A DNA stretch of 64,000 nt. Source: Pyropia yezoensis (lineage: Eukaryota > Rhodophyta > Bangiophyceae > Bangiales > Bangiaceae). The translations under genes and the position numbers were made by a program. The notes beneath the pieces were generated by a model. It searched no databases, was not told the origin of the DNA, and worked only from the letters and a program-made list of their open reading frames with translations. This document shows positions 1,057 through 49,999 of this stretch, piece by piece; positions within the stretch are counted from its first letter, which is position 1; each line of letters begins with the position of its first letter. The stretch covers positions 5,534,083-5,598,082 of the forward strand of contig CM020619.1 of the NCBI GenBank assembly GCA_009829735.1. Direction: 5' to 3'.

Positions 1057-4000
1057 TTAGTAGCCAAACCAACGCACCCTCAACATGAGGCGGTCAGTGT
1101 CTTCATCCCATCCGTGGTCGATGAACTTATCGAACACGTACTCCTGCGGGCCCTGTTTGGCCGCAGGCAGTGAGGGGAGGCGCCACGCTTCCAAAGCACG
1201 CGCCCAAGCTGGGTCGCCTGCAGGCGGTGGTGCAACTTTGACCACGTCCTGTCCGTTCACTGTGCGGACCCCATCGTCACTTTCGATGGCGAAGCGCCGC
1301 CCATCAGTACGAAGGACCTGGTACGGTCCCTTCGTCTGGAATACCAGCTTACCCCCAGTTGGGGTGTGCGAGTGTACCAGCACCCAGTCACCCTGCTCGG
1401 GGACATGTTTAGCATTGCGCACCTTTTTGTCAAAGGTACGCTTGTAGCGCTTTTGTGCTTTGTCCATCTCAGCCCTGACTTTAGGGATGAGGTTTTCAAG
1501 CCTAGCGGCGAACTCCGCCTTACTCTCAGTAGGAGTAGGCGTACTGCCGCCATCCTCCCTAGTTGGGAGCGACCGCCGCACGGCAATAGACCGCACGCGA
1601 CGGGGGGTCACAAAAGCGAGGGGTACATCCCCTGTAGATAAGTGAACCTGCGAATTGTAGGCAGTAGTAAGGATAGAAATGTATTGGTCCCACGTCTTCA
1701 CGTGCTCACTCACATAGTGGCGTAGCTGCCTAACAATAGTTTTGTTGAAGCGCTCCACCTGCCCATTAGTTTGTGGGTGGTAGGGGGTGGCATAGTTTGC
1801 CTTAACCCCCAACATATCCAGCACTCCCTGAAACAGTACAGACGCAAATTGCGGTCCATTGTCCGATAGTGTACTATCTGGGATGCCATACGCGGCAACC
1901 CAGTGATCTAGGAAGGCTGACACGACCGACATGGCCGTGATCTCTGCCAGTGGGATCGCTCGCGTAAGTTTCGTGAAGCGGTCACAGATGACCAGGAGGT
2001 ACTGGTTGCCCTCCTCGGTCACGGGCAGTGGCCCAAGGATGTCCATTGCCAACGCGGCAAAGGGCTCCTTGGCCGGGAAAAATAGCATAGCCGTACTAGG
2101 CCGCCGTTCCATCAGACGGTTCTGTGCACAACTTGTGCAGGCAGCCACCCAACTGTAGATGTCCACCACCATGGACGGCCAGTAGTACCTGGTCCTCAGG
2201 GTCTGGTACAGTTTACTAGACCCCAGGTGTCCACCCGTGGGAGCGTTGTGCTCCCTCTCAAGGATACTGTCCTTGAGGGATGCGGGGACGACAAGTTGTT
2301 CGGTCCCCTGGAATACCCCCCTCCTCATGAGGAGGCCATCGTCTCCCAGAAAGAAACGCGTCTCTACCACTGTATACAGTATATCCCTCTGCGACTTGCA
2401 GAAGGGATCCTCGGCCCGGGCCTTCAACACCTCTTCCAGGGACAGGGGCAAGTACTTCTTGTTCCCTGGCGCCTCGGGGTTCAACGCCTGACCCGAGCGC
2501 GTGACTACCCCCACGATGGGGATGTCCTCATCGACTGGGTTAGTGTCCAGCCCCTCGGTAGGTACCCGAGAAAGGCCGTCGGCAAGGGCATGTTGCCTGC
2601 CGGGTCGGTACTCAATGTCAAAGTTGAAGGGTGCCAGTCGCACCCTCCACCGGTTGAGACGAGTGTTCGTACAGTCCGTCTTAAATATGAACTGCAACGA
2701 GCGGTGGTCACAGCGGATGAAGAACTTCTTACCCTCTAGGTAGTGACGAAGTGACGTCACCGCCCACACCACTGCGAGTCCTTCCAACTCGGTGACTCCG
2801 TAGTTCTTCTCGGCCGAGTTCAGCACCTTGCTGAAGTATCCCACCGGCAAGTACTCCTTGTCCGGCTGCTGCTGAAGCAACACACAACCAAGTTGGTCGT
2901 AGCTAGCGTCCACATCCAGGATGTAGTGGCCTCCCAACCTGGGAATAGCCAAGATGGGGGGCTTCAGCAGAAGGTCCCGAAGAGTCTCAAAGGATTCCTG
3001 CTCCACCCGACTTGGGGGAGGCAGGTTCTTCGGTAGCGTTGAGCTCACTAACTCATTCAACGGCTTCGGCACCTTGGCGAAGCCCTTGGTGAAACGCCGG
3101 TACACGTTACACATCCCGCGGAAGCTCCTCATCTGGGTCTGGGTCCGGGGGTACTGAGCCTTACGAATGGCCCTCAAGTTCTTGTCGTTAACACTGAGAC
3201 GCCCCGGGCGGACAACATGTCCCAAGTACTCCACCTCTTGAGTGAAGAGGTGGCACTTACTCGCCTTCAGCGACACACCGGCGTCAGCAAGTAGCTTGAA
3301 CACCTGGCCAAGATGGCCAATGTGTTCCTCCGGACTTCGGGAAAACACAATGATATTGTCTAGGTACACGAGACAGATCTGCCACCGTACTCCGGCCAGA
3401 ATCATGTCCATAGCGCGCTGGAAAGTTGCCGGCGCGTAACACAGACCAAACGGTAGGCGCTTGCACTGGTTGGTACCACAGTGACAGGTAAAGGTAGTTT
3501 TATGCCTGTCCTCCGGGGCAATGGGAATTTGCCAGTACCCCGCGTTACAGTCCAGGGTAGAGAACACGTTTGCCTCCCCCAGAGAGTCCAGACAGTCGTC
3601 CATCCTAGGTAGGGGATAACTGTCCTTCACCGTGCTCTCGTTGAGCTTACGGTAGTCGATACAAAACCGGGGGGTCCCATCAACTTTGGGGACGATAACC
3701 ACCGGACTCGCCCACTCGGCGTTGCTGGCCTCGATCACATCGAGGGCCTCCATGCGAGCAACTTGCTCCTTAACGAGGGCCCTTGAACGAGGTCCTCCCC
3801 TATACGGTTGTTGGCGTATAGGGGGTGCACCGGGCTTCAACTCGATCCGGTGTTGGGTGGCTCTCATGAGTCCCAATTGACCATCCCACAACTTGTGATA
3901 TTGGTCCAAGAGGCGTTCAACTTGAACCCTCAACCTGGGTGGGACACCCTCCATGTTCACATGGGGCCGAGGAGAGGCGGCCGACTTGGCTTGATGCTTC

Positions 4001-4931
4001 TCCTTTCCGGACTTCGGGTCGCTACTCGCGCCCGCATTGAGGGTGACGGCCACTACCGGTCCCTCATGTTGGTCGATATAGCCGAACTTGGCTCCCGACT
4101 TGAAGTACTGGGGCGACTCAGGTTCATAACCTAGATCCCCCACGGAACCCCGGCACTGGAGTCCATCGTGCCAAGGGCAACATGCACTTGGTGCTTGCGA
4201 GCAAGACGGGGGTGAGGGTGCACCAACCCGTTCCCCGTATAATCAGTTACAACGTCAGCGTGCGCCACCGAGTTGGGAAGCAACGTGACTTTACGGGCTA
4301 GACGCAGGGTAGCAGTAAACCCTTCCCTCTCAGAGCAAACAGGCTTTGACTGTGAGACTGTCACAGGAGCCACAGACTTTCCCTTACCAAGGATGGGGAT
4401 GGTCTCCCCATTCATCAACTTGACCCAGTACTCAGGGCCACAAATCAAAGGCACTTGTGTAACAACATAAGGGGTACCCAGAAGCAGGGGTACCGATATA
4501 TTCTCAACTACACCATAGGTCAAGTCGACCTCATGGGTCCCCAACCTAGTTGGTAGGGTCACGGCACCAACGATGGGAAGTACCCCACCATTGATATCGA
4601 TCAGATGGTCAGCTTTAGACCTCCAGCGTTGGAGCTTCACCTCCTTTGGTAATGGCGACTTGCGTATCAAGGAGGCTCCTGACCCGGTATCAAGTACGAT
4701 ACGGGCACAACAGGCGCGGCCGGGGGCTAGTTGCACCCGTCCAGCCACCTGGAAGTTCTCACCCGTCAGCACCGCGATGACCCGACGTGGGTTTACGTTA
4801 TTGGGGAGTCCTACCCGAGGTGGGCGGACTCCCTTAGGTCGCCGCAGTATCCGGCACGGTTGGTTCGTCCTCCTGGCCCACTTGGCCGAGGCTGCCGTTG
4901 TGAGCTTCGGACGACCAGCCCCAACGGTCAT
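1057..4931 (-). pseudogene. pol: pol of family 1 copy A (protease-RT-RNase H-integrase-chromodomain), broken
   Basis: Order on the minus strand: aspartic protease with DTGSGA, reverse transcriptase, RNase H, integrase with an HHCC zinc finger and DD35E core, then a chromodomain. Compared with copy B there is (1) a nonsense codon at 4131-4133 (CAG to TAG), (2) a 4-nt deletion about 15 nt further on that shifts the frame, so protease and RT now lie in different frames, (3) the RT active-site motif YLDD changed to YLDN at codon 3355-3357, and (4) a nonsense codon at 1057-1059 (AAA to TAA) inside the chromodomain; the intact frame would end at 952. The first codon at 4931 is an ATG just downstream of the gag frameshift heptamer. 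Non-functional by several independent lesions. Confidence 0.93.
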
Positions 4932-14808: not shown

Positions 14809-16374
14809 TTACAGTAGGCGTCTTCGCCTCATGTAAGGCATGAGGAGTTGGCGGGGTATATTTGCCGCCTGCTCCCAGGTGGGTGAGTCGTATCCGACCC
14901 ACATAACCTTGACGTACCAGGGTCCTGGTAGGTCCGGGTCGGTGTGTCCGACCACGCTCTCTACTTGGTATGGAATCCCATCCGGTCCCACCGGGTCATC
15001 TGACCGGTGGGTTGTAAGAGCTTCATGTAGCAACCCAGCCGGTACCGGCTGAGGCTGTTCCGGCTTCGGAGCAGGTGTGACATCATTCACACTGATGCGT
15101 TGGATCTCCGTATCGGAGTGTAAGATGACAGAGTGGTCATCTCTGTGGAGAATCTGGTACGGTCCCTTGACCGGTTGCATGAGCTTGTTCCCCCGGAACT
15201 TCTGGTGTCTGATGTAGACCCAGTCACCTGTTACCAGGGTAGCGTTGCGCACCCGTAGTCGGGCGTCGAAGTTCTTCTTATATCGAAGTTGTGTTCTGTC
15301 AAGGGCACCCTTGAGCTTAGGAATCATCCACGATAGCTTGGCCAACCAAGCCAGGTGGATACGTTCGGCCGGTCGGCCTTTCGGTGTATCATACCGAGTG
15401 CACCTGCCTGGTGGCAGCGTCAGGTTACCGACGCCTAAGGGCATGACCCACTCCAGTGGCGCGATGTTCGTGCTCCGATGTGGCCTGGCATTGTATGCCA
15501 GGGTGAGTACGGACAGAAGCCTGTCCCAAGTGTTCGTGTGCTCGGCCACGTAGCACTGTAGCATCTTGACGATGGTGCGGTTGAACCGCTCCACCTGCCC
15601 GTTGGTTTGCGGGTGGTAGTCAGATGCCCGACGTGGTTCGATGCCGAACATGCCCAGGACCTTAGTGCAGAATGCTGACGTAAGGTTTGCTCCGTTGTCG
15701 GAGAGGAGTTGCTTCATGACTCCGTATGCACTGATCCAGTGGTCAACCACTGCGTTCATGATGGTGTATGCCGTATCATTCGGGATGGCTGCCGCTCGTG
15801 ACAGCTTGGTGAAGCGGTCAGACATGACCAGGATGTACCTGTTCCCTTCTTCCGTTACCGGAAGTGGCCCGAGTATGTCGATAGCGACCTGCTCGTTGGG
15901 CCCATCAGGTGGGAATGGCTTCATGGCAGACGCCTGCCTATGCAGACTCATGCGGTTACGTGCACAGGGGTGGCATCCCCTTACGTGGTCGACCACGTCG
16001 ACGGCCATTGCTGGCCAGTAGAAGAACCTTCGCATTGCTGCGAACATACATGAACCCCCCGGGTGTCCGGCTGTGGGGTTCTCGTGTTCTCGTTCCATGA
16101 CGGCTTGCCGTATGGACACGGGAACCACGACTTGATGTCCTCCATCGGCGGGTGCCCGCCGGTATATGAGTCCGTCTTCGTTCTCGGAGAAGATGCCGGC
16201 CGTACCGGCCAGGAGGTTAGCGCGATGACGTCTACAGTCGTCGTCATTGGCGTGTGCCTCGCGGAAGTCCGCGAGGGTTAGTGGGCATGCTCGGTGTGCC
16301 ATGGTATGGTCAACCATACCTTGGGTAGCGTTACCCACCATGCAGACCGGTACCACCGGGATGTCCTCGTCCAC
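14809..16374 (-). CDS. pol: pol of family 2, integrase and chromodomain part
   Basis: About 520 codons, without an ATG at the left edge of the frame, because it is the downstream part of pol separated by a frameshift. Seen in order: HHCC zinc finger (H..H then CHPC), integrase core with D in VAIDILGPL, D in LLSDNGAN and E in TNGQVERFN (DD35E), then a basic linker, and a chromodomain at the end (YVKVMWVGYDSPTWE). It inserts cDNA, and the chromodomain probably guides insertion to marked chromatin. Removing a 37-bp tandem duplication at 16371-16444 would join it to the RT/RNase H frame. Confidence 0.92.
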   Translation of the reverse strand: MDEDIPVVPVCMVGNATQGMVDHTMAHRACPLTLADFREAHANDDDCRRHRANLLAGTAGIFSENEDGLIYRRAPADGGHQVVVPVSIRQAVMEREHENPTAGHPGGSCMFAAMRRFFYWPAMAVDVVDHVRGCHPCARNRMSLHRQASAMKPFPPDGPNEQVAIDILGPLPVTEEGNRYILVMSDRFTKLSRAAAIPNDTAYTIMNAVVDHWISAYGVMKQLLSDNGANLTSAFCTKVLGMFGIEPRRASDYHPQTNGQVERFNRTIVKMLQCYVAEHTNTWDRLLSVLTLAYNARPHRSTNIAPLEWVMPLGVGNLTLPPGRCTRYDTPKGRPAERIHLAWLAKLSWMIPKLKGALDRTQLRYKKNFDARLRVRNATLVTGDWVYIRHQKFRGNKLMQPVKGPYQILHRDDHSVILHSDTEIQRISVNDVTPAPKPEQPQPVPAGLLHEALTTHRSDDPVGPDGIPYQVESVVGHTDPDLPGPWYVKVMWVGYDSPTWEQAANIPRQLLMPYMRRRRLL

Positions 16375-18937
16375 CGGGCGGGTATCCCCGCTCGGGGTGT
16401 CGAGTCGCCACCGGGCGGGTATCCCCGCTCGGGGTGTCGAGTCGAGACAATGCGTCTCCGAGATGGTGGGTTGACCCAGCCTTATACACGGTACGGTAGT
16501 CGTGCTCGGCCATTTTTAGCCTCCATCGGGCTAGCCTCCCATGGCTATCGGAATCCTTGTCACCAAGGTTGAGGAGCCATCGTAGGGGTTCGTGGTCGGA
16601 CCTCACGATGAACCTGGAGCCCTCCAGGTATGGACGGAGCAGTTGCACTGCCCATATAACTCCGAGGCATTCACGCTCGGTGGCACTATAGTTACGCTCA
16701 GCCGGGTTGAGTGTCCGGCTGAAGTATCCTACCGGACGTAGGTCCGGGATAACGTTATCGGTACCGATCAACGTCTCTTCCTGTAACAGGGTGCATCCCA
16801 CTTGTGTATCGCATGCATCGACATCGATGACGAAGGTACCCCGTCGGTGCGGTAACGCAAGGACGGGTGGGGATAGTAGGGCTCGCTTCAGCGACTCGAA
16901 TGCCTCCTCTTCGCTAGGCGAAGGGGGTTGGAGTACCTTGGGCAGGGTACTGCTCGTAAGAACCGTTAACGGTTTAGCTATCCGAGCGAAGTCCTTGACG
17001 AACCGTCGGTATACATTGCACATTCCCAGGAAGCTCTTGAGCTGTGTCTGGGTGTTAGGGAACCGGGCATCTCGGAGTGCCCGGGTATTGGCTTCGAGTA
17101 CCCCTAGTTTACCAGGGGTTATCTGGTGGCCCAGATACTCGACCGTCTGTTGGAAGAAGGCGCACTTCTTCAGACGCAGGGTTACCCCGGCGTTCCTCAA
17201 GAGGGTGAGTACCTCGTCCACATGTTGCACATGGTCATCCATGTTACGCGAGAAGACGATGACGTCGTCGAGGTACACTAGGCAGTTACGCCACTTCACC
17301 CCCGACAGTATAATGTCGATAGCCCGCTGGAATGTAGCGGGGGCATTGGACAATCCGAAGGGCATCCTTAGGAACTCGTACACTCCACTGTGACAGACGA
17401 ATGCCGTCTTGGGGATATCCTCGTCCGCCACCGGGATCTGCCAGTATCCGGCATTGCAGTCGATGGTGGTAAACACCGTAGCTTCCCCCAGGGAGTCGAT
17501 GCATTCATCCATCCTTGGTAAAGGGTAGGAGTCCTTCTTGGTAACCAAGTTGAGGCGTCGATAATCGATGCAAAACCGAGGGGTTTGATCCTTCTTCGGT
17601 ACGATGACGACCGGGGCACCCCACTCCGACATCGAAGGTCGTATCACCTTCGCTTCGCTCATCCTCTTCACTTCTTCATCAACGATCTCACGTTGCATAG
17701 GTCCCGCTCGGTGCGGATGCGACCGGGCGGGTCGTGCGCCTGGTACCAGGTCTATACGATGTTGGGTTGCCCCAATGGTACCCAAGGCTCCGCCTGTCCA
17801 CATGACGTCATGCTTTCTTAACATCCGTCGTACACCTTCGGCTACGGAAGGGGGAAGGTGGTCGAGGTCAGCCTCGGCCAGTGCCTTCAATGCTTCTTGG
17901 TCCTTCGGCGGAATATCCGCCGGTAATGATGGTCGACTAGGCTTCCCGTCATCGGGTTGCTGTCGCTCGGTGGTCTCGGCGGCCGCCAGCACCTCAAGTG
18001 GTTCCACTTGACCTTCCTTGTCACGGGTAAGGATATCCCCTTTGTAGAGCTCGGCGATCCCGAGGATAGTTCCCTTCGGGAGGGTGACTGCCTTACGGCG
18101 ATAGTTCGCCATCACTAGGAGGGACGACCCTCCGGCTGGGAGGTCTATGAGACCGTTGGCCATGGTCAACCCATGGCGTTTGTACGTCCGCAGGTTGGAC
18201 CGGACTCTGCAGATGCCTGCGAGGTCGCAGTTAACCGGGAGGACTGTCTCCGACAACGGCTCAAAGCGAGTTCGCTTGGCCAACCGAAGTGTCTTCGGCT
18301 CGACGCTTGCGTACACCTCAGCCACGTTAACGTGGCTCCCTTGTAGCGTCAGGTCCCTGACGATAGCCGTATGTCCTCGCTTCGTCCCGTCGGCTTCTTG
18401 AAGCTCGACGGTCCTCCGGCCTGGCCGGATTGCATCAACGTGAACGTTGATGAAGGTGCACCCCAGTATGCAGGGCACCGATAGGGTCTCACACACCAGG
18501 AAGTCGACTTCCGTGGTGAGTTCCCCGATGGTCACCCGTAGCGAAATCGCTGCGGTCGTACGAATGAGGCGACCATTCGCGTCCTTGATGGTGGGTCCCC
18601 GAGTCACTCTGACTCGCGGAAGCCACTTGTCCGGGAGGGTATCCTTCCGGATAAGGTTGGGTCCAGCCCCTGTATCCAGTACAGGGTAGTACGATCGTGT
18701 CGACTGGGGGTCAACCCCCAGTGTGGCTGATACCTTGAAGTTTTCCAAGGTGAACAGCACGTGGCCTACACCGATATCCAGTGTAACTCGGGCATCCTGA
18801 ACAGAGCCCTTGTCTTGTTCCATGTGACGGGGCTTCCCGTCCTCTCCTCCCAACCTTGGAGGTTGGTCATCAATCCCCTGACGCCGTGTCGTCGGGGCCG
18901 AAAGGTGTACCCGGGGGTTGATGCGGCGTCGGCTCAA
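16331..18937 (-). CDS. pol: pol of family 2, protease-RT-RNase H part
   Basis: Motifs in order: retropepsin DTGAGP, RT with YRRLN, DCNAGYWQIP, PFGLSNAP and the intact catalytic YLDD, tether, and RNase H (DVDAC...RSDHEPL). The frame is open upstream of 18937 through the end of gag, in the -1 frame relative to gag, so it is probably made by frameshifting at 19027-19033 rather than from its own start (18937 is TTG). It ends prematurely at 16331 because of the 37-bp duplication. Catalytic residues of all three enzymes look intact. Confidence 0.92.
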   Translation of the reverse strand: MSRRRINPRVHLSAPTTRRQGIDDQPPRLGGEDGKPRHMEQDKGSVQDARVTLDIGVGHVLFTLENFKVSATLGVDPQSTRSYYPVLDTGAGPNLIRKDTLPDKWLPRVRVTRGPTIKDANGRLIRTTAAISLRVTIGELTTEVDFLVCETLSVPCILGCTFINVHVDAIRPGRRTVELQEADGTKRGHTAIVRDLTLQGSHVNVAEVYASVEPKTLRLAKRTRFEPLSETVLPVNCDLAGICRVRSNLRTYKRHGLTMANGLIDLPAGGSSLLVMANYRRKAVTLPKGTILGIAELYKGDILTRDKEGQVEPLEVLAAAETTERQQPDDGKPSRPSLPADIPPKDQEALKALAEADLDHLPPSVAEGVRRMLRKHDVMWTGGALGTIGATQHRIDLVPGARPARSHPHRAGPMQREIVDEEVKRMSEAKVIRPSMSEWGAPVVIVPKKDQTPRFCIDYRRLNLVTKKDSYPLPRMDECIDSLGEATVFTTIDCNAGYWQIPVADEDIPKTAFVCHSGVYEFLRMPFGLSNAPATFQRAIDIILSGVKWRNCLVYLDDVIVFSRNMDDHVQHVDEVLTLLRNAGVTLRLKKCAFFQQTVEYLGHQITPGKLGVLEANTRALRDARFPNTQTQLKSFLGMCNVYRRFVKDFARIAKPLTVLTSSTLPKVLQPPSPSEEEAFESLKRALLSPPVLALPHRRGTFVIDVDACDTQVGCTLLQEETLIGTDNVIPDLRPVGYFSRTLNPAERNYSATERECLGVIWAVQLLRPYLEGSRFIVRSDHEPLRWLLNLGDKDSDSHGRLARWRLKMAEHDYRTVYKAGSTHHLGDALSRLDTPSGDTRPVATRHPERGYPPGGRGHPGGTGLHGG
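16371..16444. repeat. 37-bp perfect tandem duplication breaking family 2 pol
   Basis: Unit 16371-16407 is repeated at 16408-16444. Since 37 is not a multiple of three, the copy shifts the frame between RNase H and integrase. With one unit removed, the two parts of pol are in frame. Confidence 0.9.
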
Positions 18938-28598: not shown

Positions 28599-30546
28599 AT
28601 GGCTAGCTCGGACCCCCCGTCGTCCGAGGAGTACACGGGTGACGCACGTAATTCAGTGCCTTTGAATACTGGTGAGACACAGGTGGGTTTACCTGGGGTC
28701 GCAGAGGGACTAGAGGTCCCTCAAGCCAGCAGGACTGGAAGTGCGGGCGGGCAACAGGCCACCCCGACTCAGTCGGGAGCTCACTCGGGTGACACTTCTG
28801 ATGTGGGTGGGCCGAAGTCTGGCCACCGTGTGGTACACTTAACGGGAACGTCCCAAGGGGTGAGGACTGTCCCCGCGGGTTCCACTCGGGTTGGAGCCAA
28901 CTTTGGCTTGGAGCCGTCGCCAACTAGGCTTTCGGAGGACGGCGGACCTCCGTTGGTCGGCGATGGGCTCGCGCCCATGCCCCCGGTTGAGACCCCTGAG
29001 GAACGTGGTTACCCCTCAGGTGGACTCCCGGAGGCGGACCGAGACTCAACTGGAGTCGTCAATCCACTCCTCGCGGAAACTGTCCGTCGGGAGGCGACCA
29101 ATGTGTTGCGGCAGACTTTGCCGGACCTGGTGGTCACGATGACGAATACTATTCTGAATCAGATTGTGGCGAGTCTGCCAGATGGCCTTAATGTCCAGAC
29201 CGGATTGGGGCTTTCGAGCCCGCAGGCGCAGGGGGAATCCCTCCTCACGCCTACCTCTGGTCGCCCCGAACAGGGGGCGACACCTGTGACTCCCAACGAG
29301 GGAGCCACATCATACTCGGTGGGGCGTACGCCCTTCATGGGGGAGTTCCCCCCGGAAACGCCGGCGGCTACACCAAGCGCGCCGCGCCGGACTACAGGCA
29401 CTGAGGGTGAACTTACCCCAGTGCCACAGCGGCTGTTCCCTCAACGTGAGGTGCCGCCCAAGATCCAGATAGCCAACCCGGTCTACCAGAGGATCTTTGA
29501 CTGTGAGACCTACGCCCTCCACAACATGTCGGTGGCGTATGGTCCTGACCAGGCCCGAGCCATGGTCCGTGCCAAGAAGAATGCACTTCACTCTTTTGGG
29601 CACAAAGCGGAGTGGGATGGAACTCCCCCCCTCCGTGTCTTCGAGTTCCTACGTCGTTTCACAAAAGCCTGTGACGACAATGCCATAAGTGAAGGCATGG
29701 CTTTTTACATGCTACAGGAGTTTACGAAGGGCGACCTGCGGAGAGAACTTATGTCCGTCATGCCCAGCTCCTCAAGTGGAGGCGCTGGGGAGGTGACGTC
29801 CTATTTGGAGCTCGTCAACTGGTTGTTGAGGGCCATGGTTGATGAAGCGGCGTTGGCTTCTCAAGTCGAGGAGTTTACGCAAGCCCATCAGGAAGAGGCG
29901 GAGGACGAGTTGTCCTTTGCGGAGCGAGTCCGTAAGCTCAACAATCTTTGTGGGTTTCTTCATCCACAAGCTGTGGTGAAGAGTCGGTTTGTGGAGGGAC
30001 TCCATTGGTCAGTCCGGATGGAGACCCGGGAGCATAACACTGCCCGGGCGACCCTGGCCGAGTTGGCTAGGTTCGCCTACCGCAGAGGCGAGGCCTACCG
30101 CAAGTTGCGGGAGGAACAACGCCAGGAGCGTCAGGCCGAGTTGGCCAAGGAACGGGAGGAGGCGCGCCAGGCCAGGGAGTTAAGAGAGGCGCGCCGAATC
30201 CGCAAGGAGAGGGTGGTAGCTGCCGTGGGAACTTCCCAGGGTACCTCTTCGTCTTCCCCAGTTGGGAAGACCCCTCCCGGGAACTGACAATCGGTGTTGG
30301 AACTGCAACTCCGATGGACACTGGGCATATGATTGCCCCAAGTTGAGTGAACGCATCCAACAACTTGTTAGGAATGCGAGTAAGAAGTCGGCTACGAACG
30401 AAGTACGTTCACGCCGCGAGGGTGGGTCTCGACCAGTCGTCGCGGTCGCCACACCCTCGGCGAAGGAGGCGGACACGTCGTCCTCGGACTCGTCGTCTTC
30501 CTCCCCGCCCTCAGATTCGGACGCCAAGTCGGCGGGAAACGAATGA
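28599..30546 (+). pseudogene. gag: gag of copy B, frameshifted before the zinc knuckle
   Basis: The ATG at 28599 starts a protein matching copy A gag: Pro/Gly/Thr-rich N-terminus, capsid-like helical region, then an Arg/Glu-rich region. An extra G in the run at 30279-30281, compared with copy A, shifts the frame and gives a stop at 30287. The zinc knuckle CWNCNSDGHWAYDC and acidic tail ending AGNE continue in the other frame to the TGA at 30544-30546. Without the zinc knuckle the product could not package RNA normally. Confidence 0.88.
30534..30540 (+). promoter_or_regulatory. -1 ribosomal frameshift heptamer at gag end, copy B
   Basis: GCG GGA AAC GAA TGA in gag frame. G GGA AAC is in slip register and the -1 frame leads through CGA into the ATG at 30543 of pol. 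Start-stop overlap (ATGA) makes reinitiation an alternative. Confidence 0.7.
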
Positions 30547-33500
30547 CCGTTGGGGCTGGTCGTCCGAAGCTCACAATGGCAGCCTCGGCCAAGTGGGTCA
30601 AGAGGACGAACCAACCGTGCCGGATGCTGCGGCGACCTAAGGGAGTCCGCCCACCTCGGGTAGGACTCCCCAAGAACGTAAACCCACGTCGGGTCATCGC
30701 GGTGCTGACGGGTGAGAACTTCCAGGTGGCTGGACGGGTGCAACTTGCCCCCGGCCGTGCCTGCTGTGCCCGTATCGTACTTGATACCGGGTCAGGAGCC
30801 TCCTTGATACGCAAGTCGCTCTTACCAAAGGAGGTGAAGCTCCAACGCTGGAGGTCTAAAGCTGACCATCTGATCGATATCAATGGTGGGGTACTTCCCA
30901 TCGTTGGTGCCGTGACCCTACCAACTAGGTTGGGGACCCATGAGTTCGACGTGACCTATGGAGTAGTTGAGAATATATCGGTACCCCTGCTTCTGGGTAC
31001 CCCTTATGTTGTAACACAAGTGCCTTTGATTTGTGGCCCTGAGTACTGGGTCAAGTTGATGAATGGGGAGACCATCCCCATCCTTGGTAAGGGAAAGTCT
31101 GTGGCTCCTGTGACAGTCTCACAGTCGAAGCCTGTTTGCTCTGTGAGGGAAGGGTTTACTGCTACCCTGCGTTTAGCCCGTAAAGTCACGTTGCCCCCCA
31201 ACTCGGTGGCGCACGTTGACGTTGTAACTGATTTTTCGGGGAACGGGTTGGTGCACCCTAACCCCCGTCTTGCTCGCAAGCACCAAGTGCATGTTGCCCT
31301 TGGCACGATGGACTCCAAAGCCGGAGTCCCGTGGAGGATCCAGGTGATGAACCTGAGCTCGTCGCCCCAGTACTTCCAGTCGGGAGCCAAGTTCGGCTAT
31401 ATCGACCAACACGAGGGACCGGTAGTAGCGGTCACCCTCAACGCGGGCGCAAGTAGCGACCCGAAGTCCGGAAAGGAGAAGCATCAAGCCGAGTCGGCCG
31501 CCTCTCCTCGGCCCCATGTGAACATGGAGGGTGTCCCACCCAGGTTGAGGGTTCAAGTTGAACGCCTCTTGGACCAATATCACAAGTTGTGGGATGGTCA
31601 ATTGGGACTCATGAGAGCCACCCCACACCGGATCGAGTTGAAGCCCGGTGCACCCCCTATACGCCAACAACCGTATAGGGGAGGACCCCGTTCAAGGGCC
31701 CTCGTTAAGGAGCAAGTTGCTCGCATGGAGGCCCTCGATGTGATCGAGGCCAGCAACGCCGAGTGGGCGAGTCCGGTGGTTATCGTCCCCAAAGTTGATG
31801 GGACCCCCCGGTTCTGTATCGACTACCGTAAGCTCAACGAGAGCACGGTGAAGGACAGTTATCCCCTACCTAGGATGGACGACTGTCTGGACTCTCTGGG
31901 GGAGGCGAACGTGTTCTCTACCCTGGACTGTAACGCGGGGTACTGGCAAATTCCCATTGCCCCGGAGGACAGGCATAAAACTACCTTTACCTGTCACTGT
32001 GGTACCTACCAGGGCAAGCGTCTACCGTTTGGTCTGTGTAACGCGCCGGCAACTTTCCAGCGCGCTATGGACATGATTCTGGCCGGAGTACGGTGGCAGA
32101 TCTGTCTCGTGTACCTAGACGATATCATTGTGTTCTCCCGAAGTCCGGAGGAACACATTGGCCATCTTGGCCAGGTGTTCAAGCTACTTGCTGAAGCCGG
32201 TGTGTCACTGAAGGCGAGTAAGTGCCACCTCTTCACTCAAGAGGTGGAATACTTGGGACATGTTGTCCGTCCGGGGCGTCTCAGTGTCAACGAGAAGAAC
32301 TTGAGGGCCATCCGTAAGGCTCAGTACCCCCGGACCCAGACCCAGATGAGGAGTTTCCTTGGGATGTGTAACGTCAACCGACGTTTCACCAAGGGCTTCG
32401 TCAAGGTGCCGAAGCCGTTGAATGAGTTAGTGAGCTCAACGCTACCGAAGAACCTGCCTCACCCAAGTCGGGTGAAGCAGGAATCCTTTGAGACTCATCG
32501 GGACCTTCTGCTGAAGCCCCCTATCCTGGCTATTCCCAGGTTGGGAGGCCACTACATCCTGGATGTGGACGCTAGCTACGACCAACTTGGTTGTGTGTTG
32601 CTTCAGCAGCAGCCGGACAAGGAGTACTTGCCGGTGGGATACTTCAGCAAGGGGCTGAACTCGGCCGAGAAGAACTACGGAGTCACCGAGTTGGAAGGAC
32701 TCGCAGTGGTGTGGGCGGTGACGTCACTTCGTCACTACCTGGAGGGTGAGAAGTTCCTCATCCGCTGTGAGCACCGCGCGTTGCAGTTCATCTTCAAGAC
32801 GGACTGTACGAACACTCGTCTCAACCGGTGGAGGGTGCGACTGGCACCCTTCAACTATGATATTGAGTACCGACCTGGCAGGCAACATGCCCTTGCCGAC
32901 GGCCTCTCTCGGGTACCTACCGAAGTGCTAGACACTAACCCAGTCGATGAGGACATCCCCATCGTGGGGGTAGTCACGCGCTCGGGTCAGGCGTTGAACC
33001 CCGAGGCGCCAGGGAACAAGAAGTACTTGCCCCTGTCCCTGGAAGAGGTGGTGAAGGCCCAGGCCGAGGATCCCTTCTGCAAGTCGCAGAGGGATACACT
33101 GGATACAGTGGCGGAGACGCGGTTCTTTCTGGGAGACGATGGCCTCCTCATGAGGAGGGGGGTATTCCAGGGGACCGAACAACTTGTCGTCCCCGCATCC
33201 CTCAAGGACAGTATCCTTGAGAGGGAGCACAACGCTCCCACGGGTGGACACCTGGGGTCTAGTAAACTGTACCAGACCCTGAGGACCAGGTACTACTGGC
33301 CGTCCATGGTGGTGGACATCTACAGTTGGGTGGCTGCCTGCACAAGTTGTGCACAGAACCGTCTGATGGAACGGCGGCCTACTACGGCTATGCTATTGTT
33401 CCCGGCCAAGGAGCCCTTCGCCGCGTTGGCGATGGACATCCTTGGGCCACTGCCAGTGACCGAGGAGGGCAACCAGTACCTCCTGGTCATCTGTGACCGC

Positions 33501-34526
33501 TTCACGAAACTTACGCGAGCGATCCCACGGGCAGAGATCACGGCCATGTCGGTCGTGTCAGCCTTCCTAGATCACTGGGTTGCCGCGTATGGCATTCCGG
33601 ATAGTACACTATCGGACAATGGACCGCAATTTGCGTCTGTACAGTTTCAGGGAGTGCTGGATATGTTGGGGGTTGAGGCAAACTATGCCACCCCCTACCA
33701 CCCACAAACTAACGGGCAGGTGGAGCGCTTCAACAAAACTATTGTTAGGCAGCTGCGCCACTATGTGAGTGAGCACGTGAAAACGTGGGACCAATACATT
33801 TCTATTCTTACTACTGCCTACAATTCGCAGGTTCACTCATCTACCGGGGAAGTACCCCTCGCTTTTGTGACCCCCCGTCGCGTGCGGTCTATTGCCGTGC
33901 GGCGGCCGCTCCCAACTAGGGAGGATGGCGGCAGTACGCCTACTCCTACTGAGAGTAAGGCGGAGCTCGCTGCTAGGCTTGAAAACCTCATCCCTGAAGT
34001 CAGGGCTGAGATGGACAAAGCACAAAAGCGCTACAAGCGTACCTTTGACAAAAAGGTGCGCAATGCTAAGCATGTCCCCGAGCAGGGTGACTGGGTGCTG
34101 GTACACTCACACACCCCAACTGGGGGTAAGTTGGTATTCCAGACGAAGAGGCCGTACCAGGTCCTTCGTACTGATGGGCGGCGCTTCACCGTCGAAAGTG
34201 ACGATGGGGTCCGCACAGTGAACGGACAGGACGTGGTCAAAGTTGCACCACCGCCTGCAGGCGACCCAGCTTGGGCGCGTGCTTTGGAAGCGTGGCGCCT
34301 CCCCTCACTGCCTGCGGCCAAACAGGGCCCGCAGGAGTACGTGTTCGATAAGTTCATCGACCACGGATGGGATGAGGACACTGACCGCCTCATGCTGAGG
34401 GTGCGTTGGTTTGGCTACAAAGCCAAGGACGATACGTGGGAGTATGTGGAGGACCTTCCCGCTGAGAAGGTCCGGGCGTACTGTGCCCGGAATGAGATAG
34501 ACCCTAACAGCCCTCCCTCAACGTGA
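30543..34526 (+). CDS. pol: pol polyprotein of copy B (1327 aa): protease, RT, RNase H, integrase, chromodomain
   Basis: One uninterrupted frame. Protease DTGSGA at residues 81-86; RT about 390-570 with DCNAGYWQIP, PFGLCNAPATF and catalytic YLDD at 524-527; RNase H from about 670 (DVDASYDQLG); integrase HHCC finger about 896-938; integrase core D965, D1025 and E1061 (DD35E); chromodomain about 1275-1320 (LRVRWFGYKAKDDTWEYV). It copies element RNA to cDNA and integrates it. Two unusual residues compared with copy A: RNase H RCDHR is RCEHR here (codon 32769-32771), and VYRRF is VNRRF. The first may weaken RNase H. Probably expressed by -1 frameshifting from gag. Confidence 0.96.
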   Translation: MTVGAGRPKLTMAASAKWVKRTNQPCRMLRRPKGVRPPRVGLPKNVNPRRVIAVLTGENFQVAGRVQLAPGRACCARIVLDTGSGASLIRKSLLPKEVKLQRWRSKADHLIDINGGVLPIVGAVTLPTRLGTHEFDVTYGVVENISVPLLLGTPYVVTQVPLICGPEYWVKLMNGETIPILGKGKSVAPVTVSQSKPVCSVREGFTATLRLARKVTLPPNSVAHVDVVTDFSGNGLVHPNPRLARKHQVHVALGTMDSKAGVPWRIQVMNLSSSPQYFQSGAKFGYIDQHEGPVVAVTLNAGASSDPKSGKEKHQAESAASPRPHVNMEGVPPRLRVQVERLLDQYHKLWDGQLGLMRATPHRIELKPGAPPIRQQPYRGGPRSRALVKEQVARMEALDVIEASNAEWASPVVIVPKVDGTPRFCIDYRKLNESTVKDSYPLPRMDDCLDSLGEANVFSTLDCNAGYWQIPIAPEDRHKTTFTCHCGTYQGKRLPFGLCNAPATFQRAMDMILAGVRWQICLVYLDDIIVFSRSPEEHIGHLGQVFKLLAEAGVSLKASKCHLFTQEVEYLGHVVRPGRLSVNEKNLRAIRKAQYPRTQTQMRSFLGMCNVNRRFTKGFVKVPKPLNELVSSTLPKNLPHPSRVKQESFETHRDLLLKPPILAIPRLGGHYILDVDASYDQLGCVLLQQQPDKEYLPVGYFSKGLNSAEKNYGVTELEGLAVVWAVTSLRHYLEGEKFLIRCEHRALQFIFKTDCTNTRLNRWRVRLAPFNYDIEYRPGRQHALADGLSRVPTEVLDTNPVDEDIPIVGVVTRSGQALNPEAPGNKKYLPLSLEEVVKAQAEDPFCKSQRDTLDTVAETRFFLGDDGLLMRRGVFQGTEQLVVPASLKDSILEREHNAPTGGHLGSSKLYQTLRTRYYWPSMVVDIYSWVAACTSCAQNRLMERRPTTAMLLFPAKEPFAALAMDILGPLPVTEEGNQYLLVICDRFTKLTRAIPRAEITAMSVVSAFLDHWVAAYGIPDSTLSDNGPQFASVQFQGVLDMLGVEANYATPYHPQTNGQVERFNKTIVRQLRHYVSEHVKTWDQYISILTTAYNSQVHSSTGEVPLAFVTPRRVRSIAVRRPLPTREDGGSTPTPTESKAELAARLENLIPEVRAEMDKAQKRYKRTFDKKVRNAKHVPEQGDWVLVHSHTPTGGKLVFQTKRPYQVLRTDGRRFTVESDDGVRTVNGQDVVKVAPPPAGDPAWARALEAWRLPSLPAAKQGPQEYVFDKFIDHGWDEDTDRLMLRVRWFGYKAKDDTWEYVEDLPAEKVRAYCARNEIDPNSPPST

Positions 34527-48523: not shown

Positions 48524-49937
48524 TTAAAAGACAGACAGAGCGGCGACGACGGCGGTCCGCGCAGCATCTGCCCACCCCCTCCCGCCCCCGTGCAGCCACC
48601 CCACCGACCACCCCGTCGTGCGGTAGAGCGCCGCCGCGGGCGCCAGCGCTGCTCGCGCGGCCGCCACGGGCACCGCCGTCGTCCACGTGCTAACCACAAA
48701 GCCGTCGACGATGAGGTCCCCAGACAGGGTGTGCGGGTGGTACAGCCCCTCCGCCACCACCCGCTCCACCGCGACCACGACGGCGGGCGTCACCGTGCCG
48801 TCGGCGGCAACGGCCGGGAGGGTGTCGCCCACCACCACCGCCGACGCGGGCGTCCGACCCCCATTGGCGTAGATGAGGTGTCCCGGGGAGGCGGTGAGGG
48901 CACCACCGCTGGCGGTGCGCAGGCGCACAAACGGGTGGCGCCCGGCGGGCAGCCGGTGGGACCACAGGTACACGTCGGACGAGGCGCCGTCGGCGCCGAC
49001 GCGCAGGGCGTCGCCGACCGAAACGTCGGCGAGCCGCACCGCCGCCCCGTCGGAACGCTGCACCATGGCCGAGGCGGGGAAGCACGCGGCGCCGCCGTCC
49101 GGGTCGGCCGCCGGTGTTGGCGACGAGCGGTTGGCCGCCGCCTCGGCGGCCAGCTCCTGGACGGGCCCGTAGCACACCACCTCCCGCCCGTTGGTGTCTT
49201 GCAGCGGCCGGGCGTTGCCCGCGGCGGGGCCCTCTCCGCGGATGGCAGCAAACGCCGACACCTGCACCCGCGACACGGAGAGGACGTCTGTCTGGAGGAA
49301 CCAGTTCAAGCCTTCGGTGCAGGGCGGGGTGGTGAGGCTCCCCTCGAGGTGACAAAAGCCGCTCTCGGGGCGCATCACATTGTCCCACTCCCCCGCCGCG
49401 ACGGTGACGTTCGTCTCTGCCGCCTTGGCGTCGAGCAGCCGCTGCAGCAGCGGGTGCGGCGCGCCCAGGTAGTCAAACAGCATGCCCACCACCGCGATCT
49501 CCTGCGTGTCTGCCGACACGTGGACGGCGTGGAGCTCCAGGGGGAAGGACCGCCCGTTGAGCTGGTGCTCGGCCGGCACGTGCGCGTGGATGTCGAGCAG
49601 CGCGTAGGTGGTGTTGGCCCACCGGAGGCGCCCGCAGGTGGACGCCGAGTCACACTGCATCGGCACGTTGTTGGCCTTGACCTCCACGTGGAAGAGCCCC
49701 CCCTCGGGGCGTGCCAGGTCGTGCATCACCGTCCCCGCCGCCCGCGGGGGGGTGACGACAACGTTGATGGGGCTCTGGCGGTCCCCCGCGCCGCACGAGG
49801 CAAAGCGGTTGTCCAGGGCGTGCCAGTGCGCCGGCCCCGACGGGCCGTCGTAAAACCAGGGGGGCGTCTCCCCGCCGGGCGCCGCCGCCGCCGCCGCCCG
49901 GGGGACGCCGGGCGCGCCCGCCACGGCCGCCACCGCC

Positions 49938-49969
<32 letters not shown>

Positions 49970-49999
49970 CAGCCGCCTCCCCATGGCCGACCGCGTCAT
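48524..49999 (-). CDS. Secreted alpha-carbonic anhydrase fused to a Hint (hedgehog/intein) domain
   Basis: 491 aa. Start chosen at the ATG at 49999 because it gives an N-terminal signal peptide (two Arg then a run of Ala/Val, to about residue 35); the frame upstream has only non-ATG starts. Residues about 45-270 are a complete alpha-carbonic anhydrase (CO2 hydration): QSPINV at 75-80, zinc ligands H138, H140 and H157 in DIHAH and ELHAVH, and GSLTTPPC at 220-227. C69 and C227 are placed for the disulfide usual in secreted members. The proton-shuttle His of typical enzymes seems absent (Gly101 region). A Ser/Pro/Ala linker follows, then Hint from about 306: catalytic-type Cys306 (ACFPAS), SPGHLIYANG at 371-380, and SGDLIVDGFVVSTWT at 426-440. 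The tail is Ala-rich and hydrophobic. Hint domains self-cleave at the first Cys, so the enzyme may be released from, or modified at, its C-terminus. Single exon. Confidence 0.92.

Follow-up and report, generated by a model that had tools for sequence, protein, structure and literature searches.

Among the closest described systems to the locus reported here are the animal hedgehogs (structures 1at0 and 6tyy), which end in a Hint domain with a first cysteine (Cys1), a T/SxxH motif and a helix-loop-helix tail. The Hint domain with Cys1 and this motif recurs, together with a predicted tail of such a shape, in the product of a minus-strand gene of Pyropia yezoensis (assembly GCA_009829735.1, contig CM020619.1), located in a stretch of 64,000 nucleotides that we call the window (C2:5534083-5598082 of a searched genome of 107,475,971 bases). 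However, where hedgehog has Hedge at its N-terminus, this protein has a carbonic anhydrase (CA); furthermore, it has a natural His in the place of Asp46, a change that was engineered in 6tyy (PDB title 'Hedgehog autoprocessing mutant D46H'), a Thr for the motif-J Cys and a tail without HWY. Two other related systems are red algal (articles given by PMC number are cited from passages of them, unless the main text is named). The Hog proteins of Burglin 2008 (PMC2362128) are of the same Hog family and include open reading frames (ORFs) of Porphyra yezoensis and P. haitanensis in which the motif-J Cys is replaced, but they were described as two Hog ORFs per species whose upstream part had no match in other organisms; 'carbonic' occurs 0 times in the main text, and the passages do not mention a His at position 46. 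The Kelch-Hint proteins of Cyanidiales (PMC9812998) are also multicopy red-algal Hint domains with a Thr/Pro/Ala-rich linker between Hint and a further domain, but their partners are Kelch and trefoil domains, they are subtelomeric and carbonic anhydrase is unmentioned in the passages. In the account of the P. yezoensis alphaCAs (PMC7423979), the main text contains neither 'hedgehog' nor 'intein', while 'hint' appears solely within the phrase 'hints at'. Our search of listings and passages of mostly open-access papers on Hint or Hog together with carbonic anhydrase, red algae, glycosylphosphatidylinositol (GPI) and cholesterol found neither a CA-Hint fusion nor a proposal of Hog in the place of GPI.

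Sequence, profiles and structural model support a self-processing extracellular CA with a hedgehog-type Hint as the best reading of this gene. Going further, we lean with moderate confidence towards a secreted alpha-CA precursor whose Hog module would cleave itself off before Cys306 and sterylate the enzyme, which would be held on the outer plasma membrane. The fusion is directly observed, as the frame runs from an ATG at 49999 to a stop ending at 48524 through 491 codons without interruption. In the Pfam scan of the protein only two domains exceeded their curated cut-offs, Carb_anhydrase (residues 55-275, 94.3 bits, E 1.2e-26) and Hint (PF01079, residues 304-462, 64.9 bits, E 1e-17, about twice its cut-off), the Hedge signalling domain not being among them. 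The first-pass annotation had claimed both domains in one frame and proposed this very check, and its placement of the Hint start at Cys306 also held, as did its SPGH motif, which lies at residues 371-374. The first 40 residues are Ala/Val-rich and, judged by eye, plausibly a signal peptide; because the near copy P0002 lacks the first five residues, the true start may be the second ATG (49984).

The N-terminal domain is an alpha-CA by its fold, its Pfam score, its zinc-binding His residues and its equivalents of Glu106 and Thr199, and it may be active in CO2 hydration (positions 64, 106, 199 and 23/203 are given in human CA II numbering). The parts of a complete alpha-CA noticed at first reading could all be located: the three zinc ligands (His138, His140 and His157), Cys69 and Cys227 for the Cys23/Cys203 pair, QSPIN at residue 75 and GSLTTPPC at 220. 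In addition, Glu144 corresponds to Glu106 and Thr224 to Thr199. The proton-shuttle His, already suspected to be missing, is indeed absent, its column (His64) holding Asn110 in the alignment; some accepted alpha-CAs also lack His64, and the shuttle His is not needed for membership of the family. P. yezoensis has been reported to possess 15 alphaCA genes, several of them extracellular and some conchocelis-specific, as well as extracellular CA activity, and extracellular CA to free carbonate from shells (PMC7423979). As a separate observation, 35 of the 58 alpha-CA rows (C1-C3) span just profile positions 192-252 or so (for instance C1:10200657-10200824), many of them in frames of about 82 residues at dispersed sites of the genome, a pattern that would fit a repeat carrying part of a CA gene.

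The same fusion is found in homologues from other assemblies, including other red algae such as Pyropia vietnamensis and Porphyra umbilicalis, where the first-pass annotation had suggested looking for it, and this rules out two separate genes, a chance ORF or an assembly accident. The protein homologue search returned as near copies with both domains P0002 (98% identical), P0004 (88%) and P0003 (87%; MMPV_000425, annotated in P. vietnamensis), among 17 homologues with both Pfam domains (P0002-P0011, P0013 and P0015-P0020), five of them assigned to an organism (three to P. vietnamensis, one to P. yezoensis and one to P. umbilicalis). Cys1 is present in 16 of the 17 and missing only from P0018, an NCBI gene model that skips linker and Cys1, probably at a false intron; a sub-threshold Hint score with an unconserved Cys, named beforehand as the outcome that would speak against the self-processing reading, is thus the opposite of what was found. 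The window protein is identical to P0003 at 222/235 positions of the CA, 107/131 of the Hint and 51/55 of the tail, and at 18/25 of the linker and 16/40 of the leader; as identity is higher in Hint and tail than in linker and leader, the former two look constrained. The N-glycosylation sequons at 129, 197 and 290 are all kept in P0002, P0003 and P0004, and not in more distant rows.

The Hint tree unites 14 CA-Hint rows, by their Hint parts, in a single clade (support 100/99) with three subfamilies, whose members in this genome are the window gene and the loci L005 and L059; most simply, the fusion arose once, before the split of these species, and duplications followed. The CA tree gives the CA-Hint rows no clade of their own, since the Hint-less L006 and P0014 fall among them, and the label needs 3 changes; L006:1195-2493 (minus) is a 97% copy of the L005 CA and linker over 1172 bases that ends before the Hint. 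The third subfamily (L059:342-2801, minus, with P0011, P0013 and P0015-P0019) has lost two of the three zinc His (A/H/Q) in 7/7 rows covering them, and retains His46, Ser69 and His72 in 7/7 rows and Cys1 in 6, the seventh being P0018 (I4F81_005321, P. yezoensis), from which the L059 CA part stands at zero branch length. This CA is probably catalytically dead, as in the animal CA-related proteins, while the Hint active site is kept.

The module ends dozens of predicted proteins of this genome. The PF01079 profile search gave 84 rows, reduced to 76 loci when those lying within 1 kb were merged; we examined 53 of them (L005, L059 and the 51 best-scoring rows, leaving out the other 23), and in 53/53 Hint was the last domain found. 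The partners recognised by Pfam were carbonic anhydrase (3 loci), imelysin (L027) and fasciclin (L050), with sub-cut-off matches to DOMON in L028 and to an extensin-like domain in L030; 13 of the 53 frames run past the fetched stretch at the N-terminal side, where partners may have escaped notice. BLASTP sorts 51 Hint proteins by their N-terminal parts into 30 clusters, a number inflated by these cut frames, and outside this genome a spondin-Hint protein (P0064) was found. Asp and Glu are enriched in the ten residues preceding Cys1 (0.306 vs 0.123 in the region before these; 51 genes, Wilcoxon p 9e-8), and therefore a similar junction is common to largely unrelated proteins. The matches of the protein searches (9 among 8000 scored candidates with the Hint part, 5 with a Gracilariopsis Hint) were not enough to chart the distribution of the family across life.

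We aligned 51 of the 53 frames, picked by a Cys1-like motif. The general base of hedgehog, Asp46, is not kept, its column holding His in 51/51 copies and also in 29/29 rows of a second alignment (the window piece, Pyropia and Porphyra, Gracilariopsis and others). His72 and the Ser135 and Thr138 of the Hint end motif are likewise invariant, and position 69 is Ser (26/51) or Thr (25/51). One of the two left-out frames, L052:2055-3707 (minus), has a fitting Cys in an altered motif and keeps F-x-H and S/T-x-x-H. When the 51 copies were made into a profile, its best match was Drosophila hedgehog, the invariant His being paired with Asp46 of 1at0 and His46 of 6tyy, and the similarity continued beyond Hint into helix 1 of the hedgehog sterol recognition region (SRR), to profile position 170. 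The Hint was modelled alone (the matches listed for the full-length model were all carbonic anhydrases and dioscorin), and this model has the same fold as 1at0 (1.3 A), with a superposition that starts at Cys306. The tail is predicted by AlphaFold to form a helix-loop-helix with helix 2 at lower confidence, a shape that has been described for the SRR, in which HWY is the helix-2 motif of SHH (PMC7242414); A-P-x-R occurs in 37/51 tails. With its Cys1 and T/SxxH, and being closer to hedgehog than to inteins in profile and model, the C-terminal module is assigned to the hedgehog-type Hint domains. The D46H mutant reportedly keeps near-native cholesterol activity. Asp46 likely activates the cholesterol hydroxyl in hedgehog, and D46H hedgehog is reported to accept a wider set of sterols (PMC8529194, citing Zhao 2019).

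According to the model that we propose, the gene would encode a secreted alpha-CA precursor with a C-terminal hedgehog-type autoprocessing (Hog) module. In the secretory pathway Cys306 would attack the Ala305-Cys306 bond, aided by Ser371 and His374, and give a thioester, as the chemistry of the family suggests; the helical tail would present a membrane sterol to the catalytic centre, where the sterol hydroxyl, activated by His348 at the place of hedgehog Asp46, would take over the CA. With the Hog piece shed, a C-terminal sterol ester would keep the CA on the outside of the plasma membrane. Between the release and the tethering left open at first reading, the data favour tethering, because of the genome-wide family, the predicted general-base His in 51/51 copies and the predicted helix-loop-helix tail. 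Surface tethering would keep the CA beside the membrane in moving water. The features of the gene and of the window are collected in the table.

Table. Features of the CA-Hint gene and of the rest of the window (positions in the window; residues of the 491-aa protein)
Feature	Position	Strand	Remarks
Whole ORF	48524..49999	minus	491 aa: leader, alpha-carbonic anhydrase, linker, Hint, helical tail
N-terminal leader, Ala/Val-rich, residues 1-42	49874..49999	minus	from sequence; model confidence (pLDDT) <50
Second ATG	49984	minus	coincides with start of P0002
Alpha-carbonic anhydrase domain, residues 46-280	49160..49864	minus	
Codons of zinc ligands His138 and His140	49580..49588	minus	
Codon of third zinc ligand His157	49529..49531	minus	
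Variable linker, residues 281-305	49085..49159	minus	predicted new C-terminus Ala305
Hint core, residues 306-440	48680..49084	minus	
Cys306, Hint Cys1, predicted nucleophile	49082..49084	minus	predicted cleavage directly before; opens superposition on 1at0
His348, column of hedgehog Asp46 (general base)	48956..48958	minus	profile alignment: 1at0 FMDR, 6tyy FMHR
Ser371-Pro-Gly-His374, block-B TxxH/SxxH motif	48878..48889	minus	
Tail helix 1, residues 445-462, counterpart of SRR helix 1	48614..48667	minus	AlphaFold; profile alignment into Drosophila Hh
Tail helix 2, residues 476-490	48530..48574	minus	AlphaFold, lower confidence, block means 72, 76, 67
Long frame, reverse transcriptase and RNase H	1057-4143	minus	Pfam
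Long frame, reverse transcriptase and RNase H	16331-18937	minus	Pfam
Long frame, reverse transcriptase and RNase H	30543-34526	plus	Pfam

Several observations weigh against a sterol-tethered CA. The tails of the three CA-Hint proteins (window, L005 and L059) are all among the 14/51 without A-P-x-R, HWY is absent from the window tail, and the motif-J Cys of hedgehog, Thr in the window, is Cys in only 4/51 copies. The presence of Cys1 in 51/51 aligned frames is partly due to their selection, and the other left-out frame, L045:1865-3112 (plus), a near copy of the L013/L016/L017 group, has lost its start and Cys1 while keeping F-x-H and S/T-x-x-H. As judged from L006, a soluble, Hint-less CA form may exist, and several P. 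yezoensis alphaCAs were predicted to be plastidial (PMC7423979). Cholesterol made up only 1.3-8.6% of the sterols of Porphyra and Palmaria in one study, and none was found in the red alga Halymenia in another (both cited in PMC8234223). Moreover, cleavage and lipid are argued by analogy with hedgehog, and we also infer secretion, adduct and location.

Some of these data would suit a thioester at Cys306 that is resolved by water, with soluble CA released to the wall or medium and a tail whose sole part is to target or regulate the precursor: hedgehog lacking its SRR is cleaved in the absence of cholesterol (PMC7242414), secreted alphaCAs are described in P. yezoensis (PMC7423979), the three CA-Hint tails deviate from hedgehog at the helix-1 arginine, and L006 suggests that a soluble form is tolerated. 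We regard this hydrolysis as unlikely, though deserving serious attention, as it needs neither a tail identical in 51/55 positions, nor a His in the general-base column of 51/51 copies, nor a helix-loop-helix. Transfer to a non-sterol acceptor (wall polysaccharide, glycolipid or amine), which would fix the CA to the wall in a sortase-like manner, seems rather improbable to us given that the profile similarity to hedgehog reaches SRR helix 1 and that D46H hedgehog is reported to use sterols; on its side, we came across no description of the adduct of any non-animal Hog protein in what we read, helix 2 of the red-algal tails is unlike that of hedgehog, and the nematode equivalent was named adduct recognition region, for 'a sterol or similar moiety' (PMC2362128). 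The Hint could also be stable and uncleaved, for instance as a relict or binding domain, as L045 without Cys1 and the reliance on family chemistry for cleavage in this protein would allow, but the position-46 His, Ser/Thr69 and His72 are present in 51/51 copies otherwise 37-55% identical to that of the window, which makes this very unlikely. Finally, the Hint fold is common to inteins, whose splice end normally carries Asn, and splicing would join the CA to a downstream part; we give this practically no credence, as the frame ends about 50 residues past Hint without a downstream extein, and Ser135 and Thr138, not the splice-end Asn, are found at the Hint end in 51/51 copies.

A sterol anchor on the CA would have a wider meaning in an organism without GPI anchors. 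GPI biosynthesis, PIG-A included, is apparently missing in Rhodophyta (PMC3797821), and its loss in ancestral red algae has been restated (PMC9812998). Profile searches of this genome for Gpi16, PIG-A, C13/PIG-K and Gaa1 gave no match, with poor controls, all non-eukaryotic, of which Gpi16 and Gaa1 matched none, PIG-A one prokaryote below cut-off and C13 one above it; STT3, another protein of the endoplasmic reticulum membrane, was detected at E 7.1e-98. Measurements of cholesterol exist for Pyropia tenera, and in 37 red algae it is cited as the main sterol (PMC8234223). It is conceivable, but we hold it doubtful, that in red algae a promiscuous, self-acting Hog module at the C-terminus stands in for GPI across the genome, with dozens of surface proteins (CA, fasciclin, imelysin) cut before Cys1 and anchored by sterols whose range is widened by the His base. 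The CA would in that case be kept at the membrane to supply CO2 for uptake, or to dissolve the carbonate of shells during the conchocelis stage. This would explain how surface proteins are retained without GPI anchors, and would provide a definite chemistry for a surface enzyme in carbon acquisition and shell boring by nori. Covalent cholesterol on proteins is known chiefly from hedgehogs, which have been called singular in this respect (PMC7242414); if dozens of Hog proteins were sterylated, it would be a general anchoring route of an algal lineage rather than a rarity of animal morphogens. Furthermore, natural Hog domains with His46 are possible tools for attaching sterols to proteins.

With regard to the surroundings of the gene, the first 36 kb of the window holds LTR (long terminal repeat) retrotransposons, as indicated by the three long frames of the table, two of which also have an integrase domain. 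A bacterial island at 1-36 kb, which had been suspected from the GC content and overlapping ORFs, is ruled out by these Pfam matches to LTR-retrotransposon reverse transcriptase and integrase. The GC content of this part is 0.57-0.67, below the 0.71 around the CA-Hint gene.
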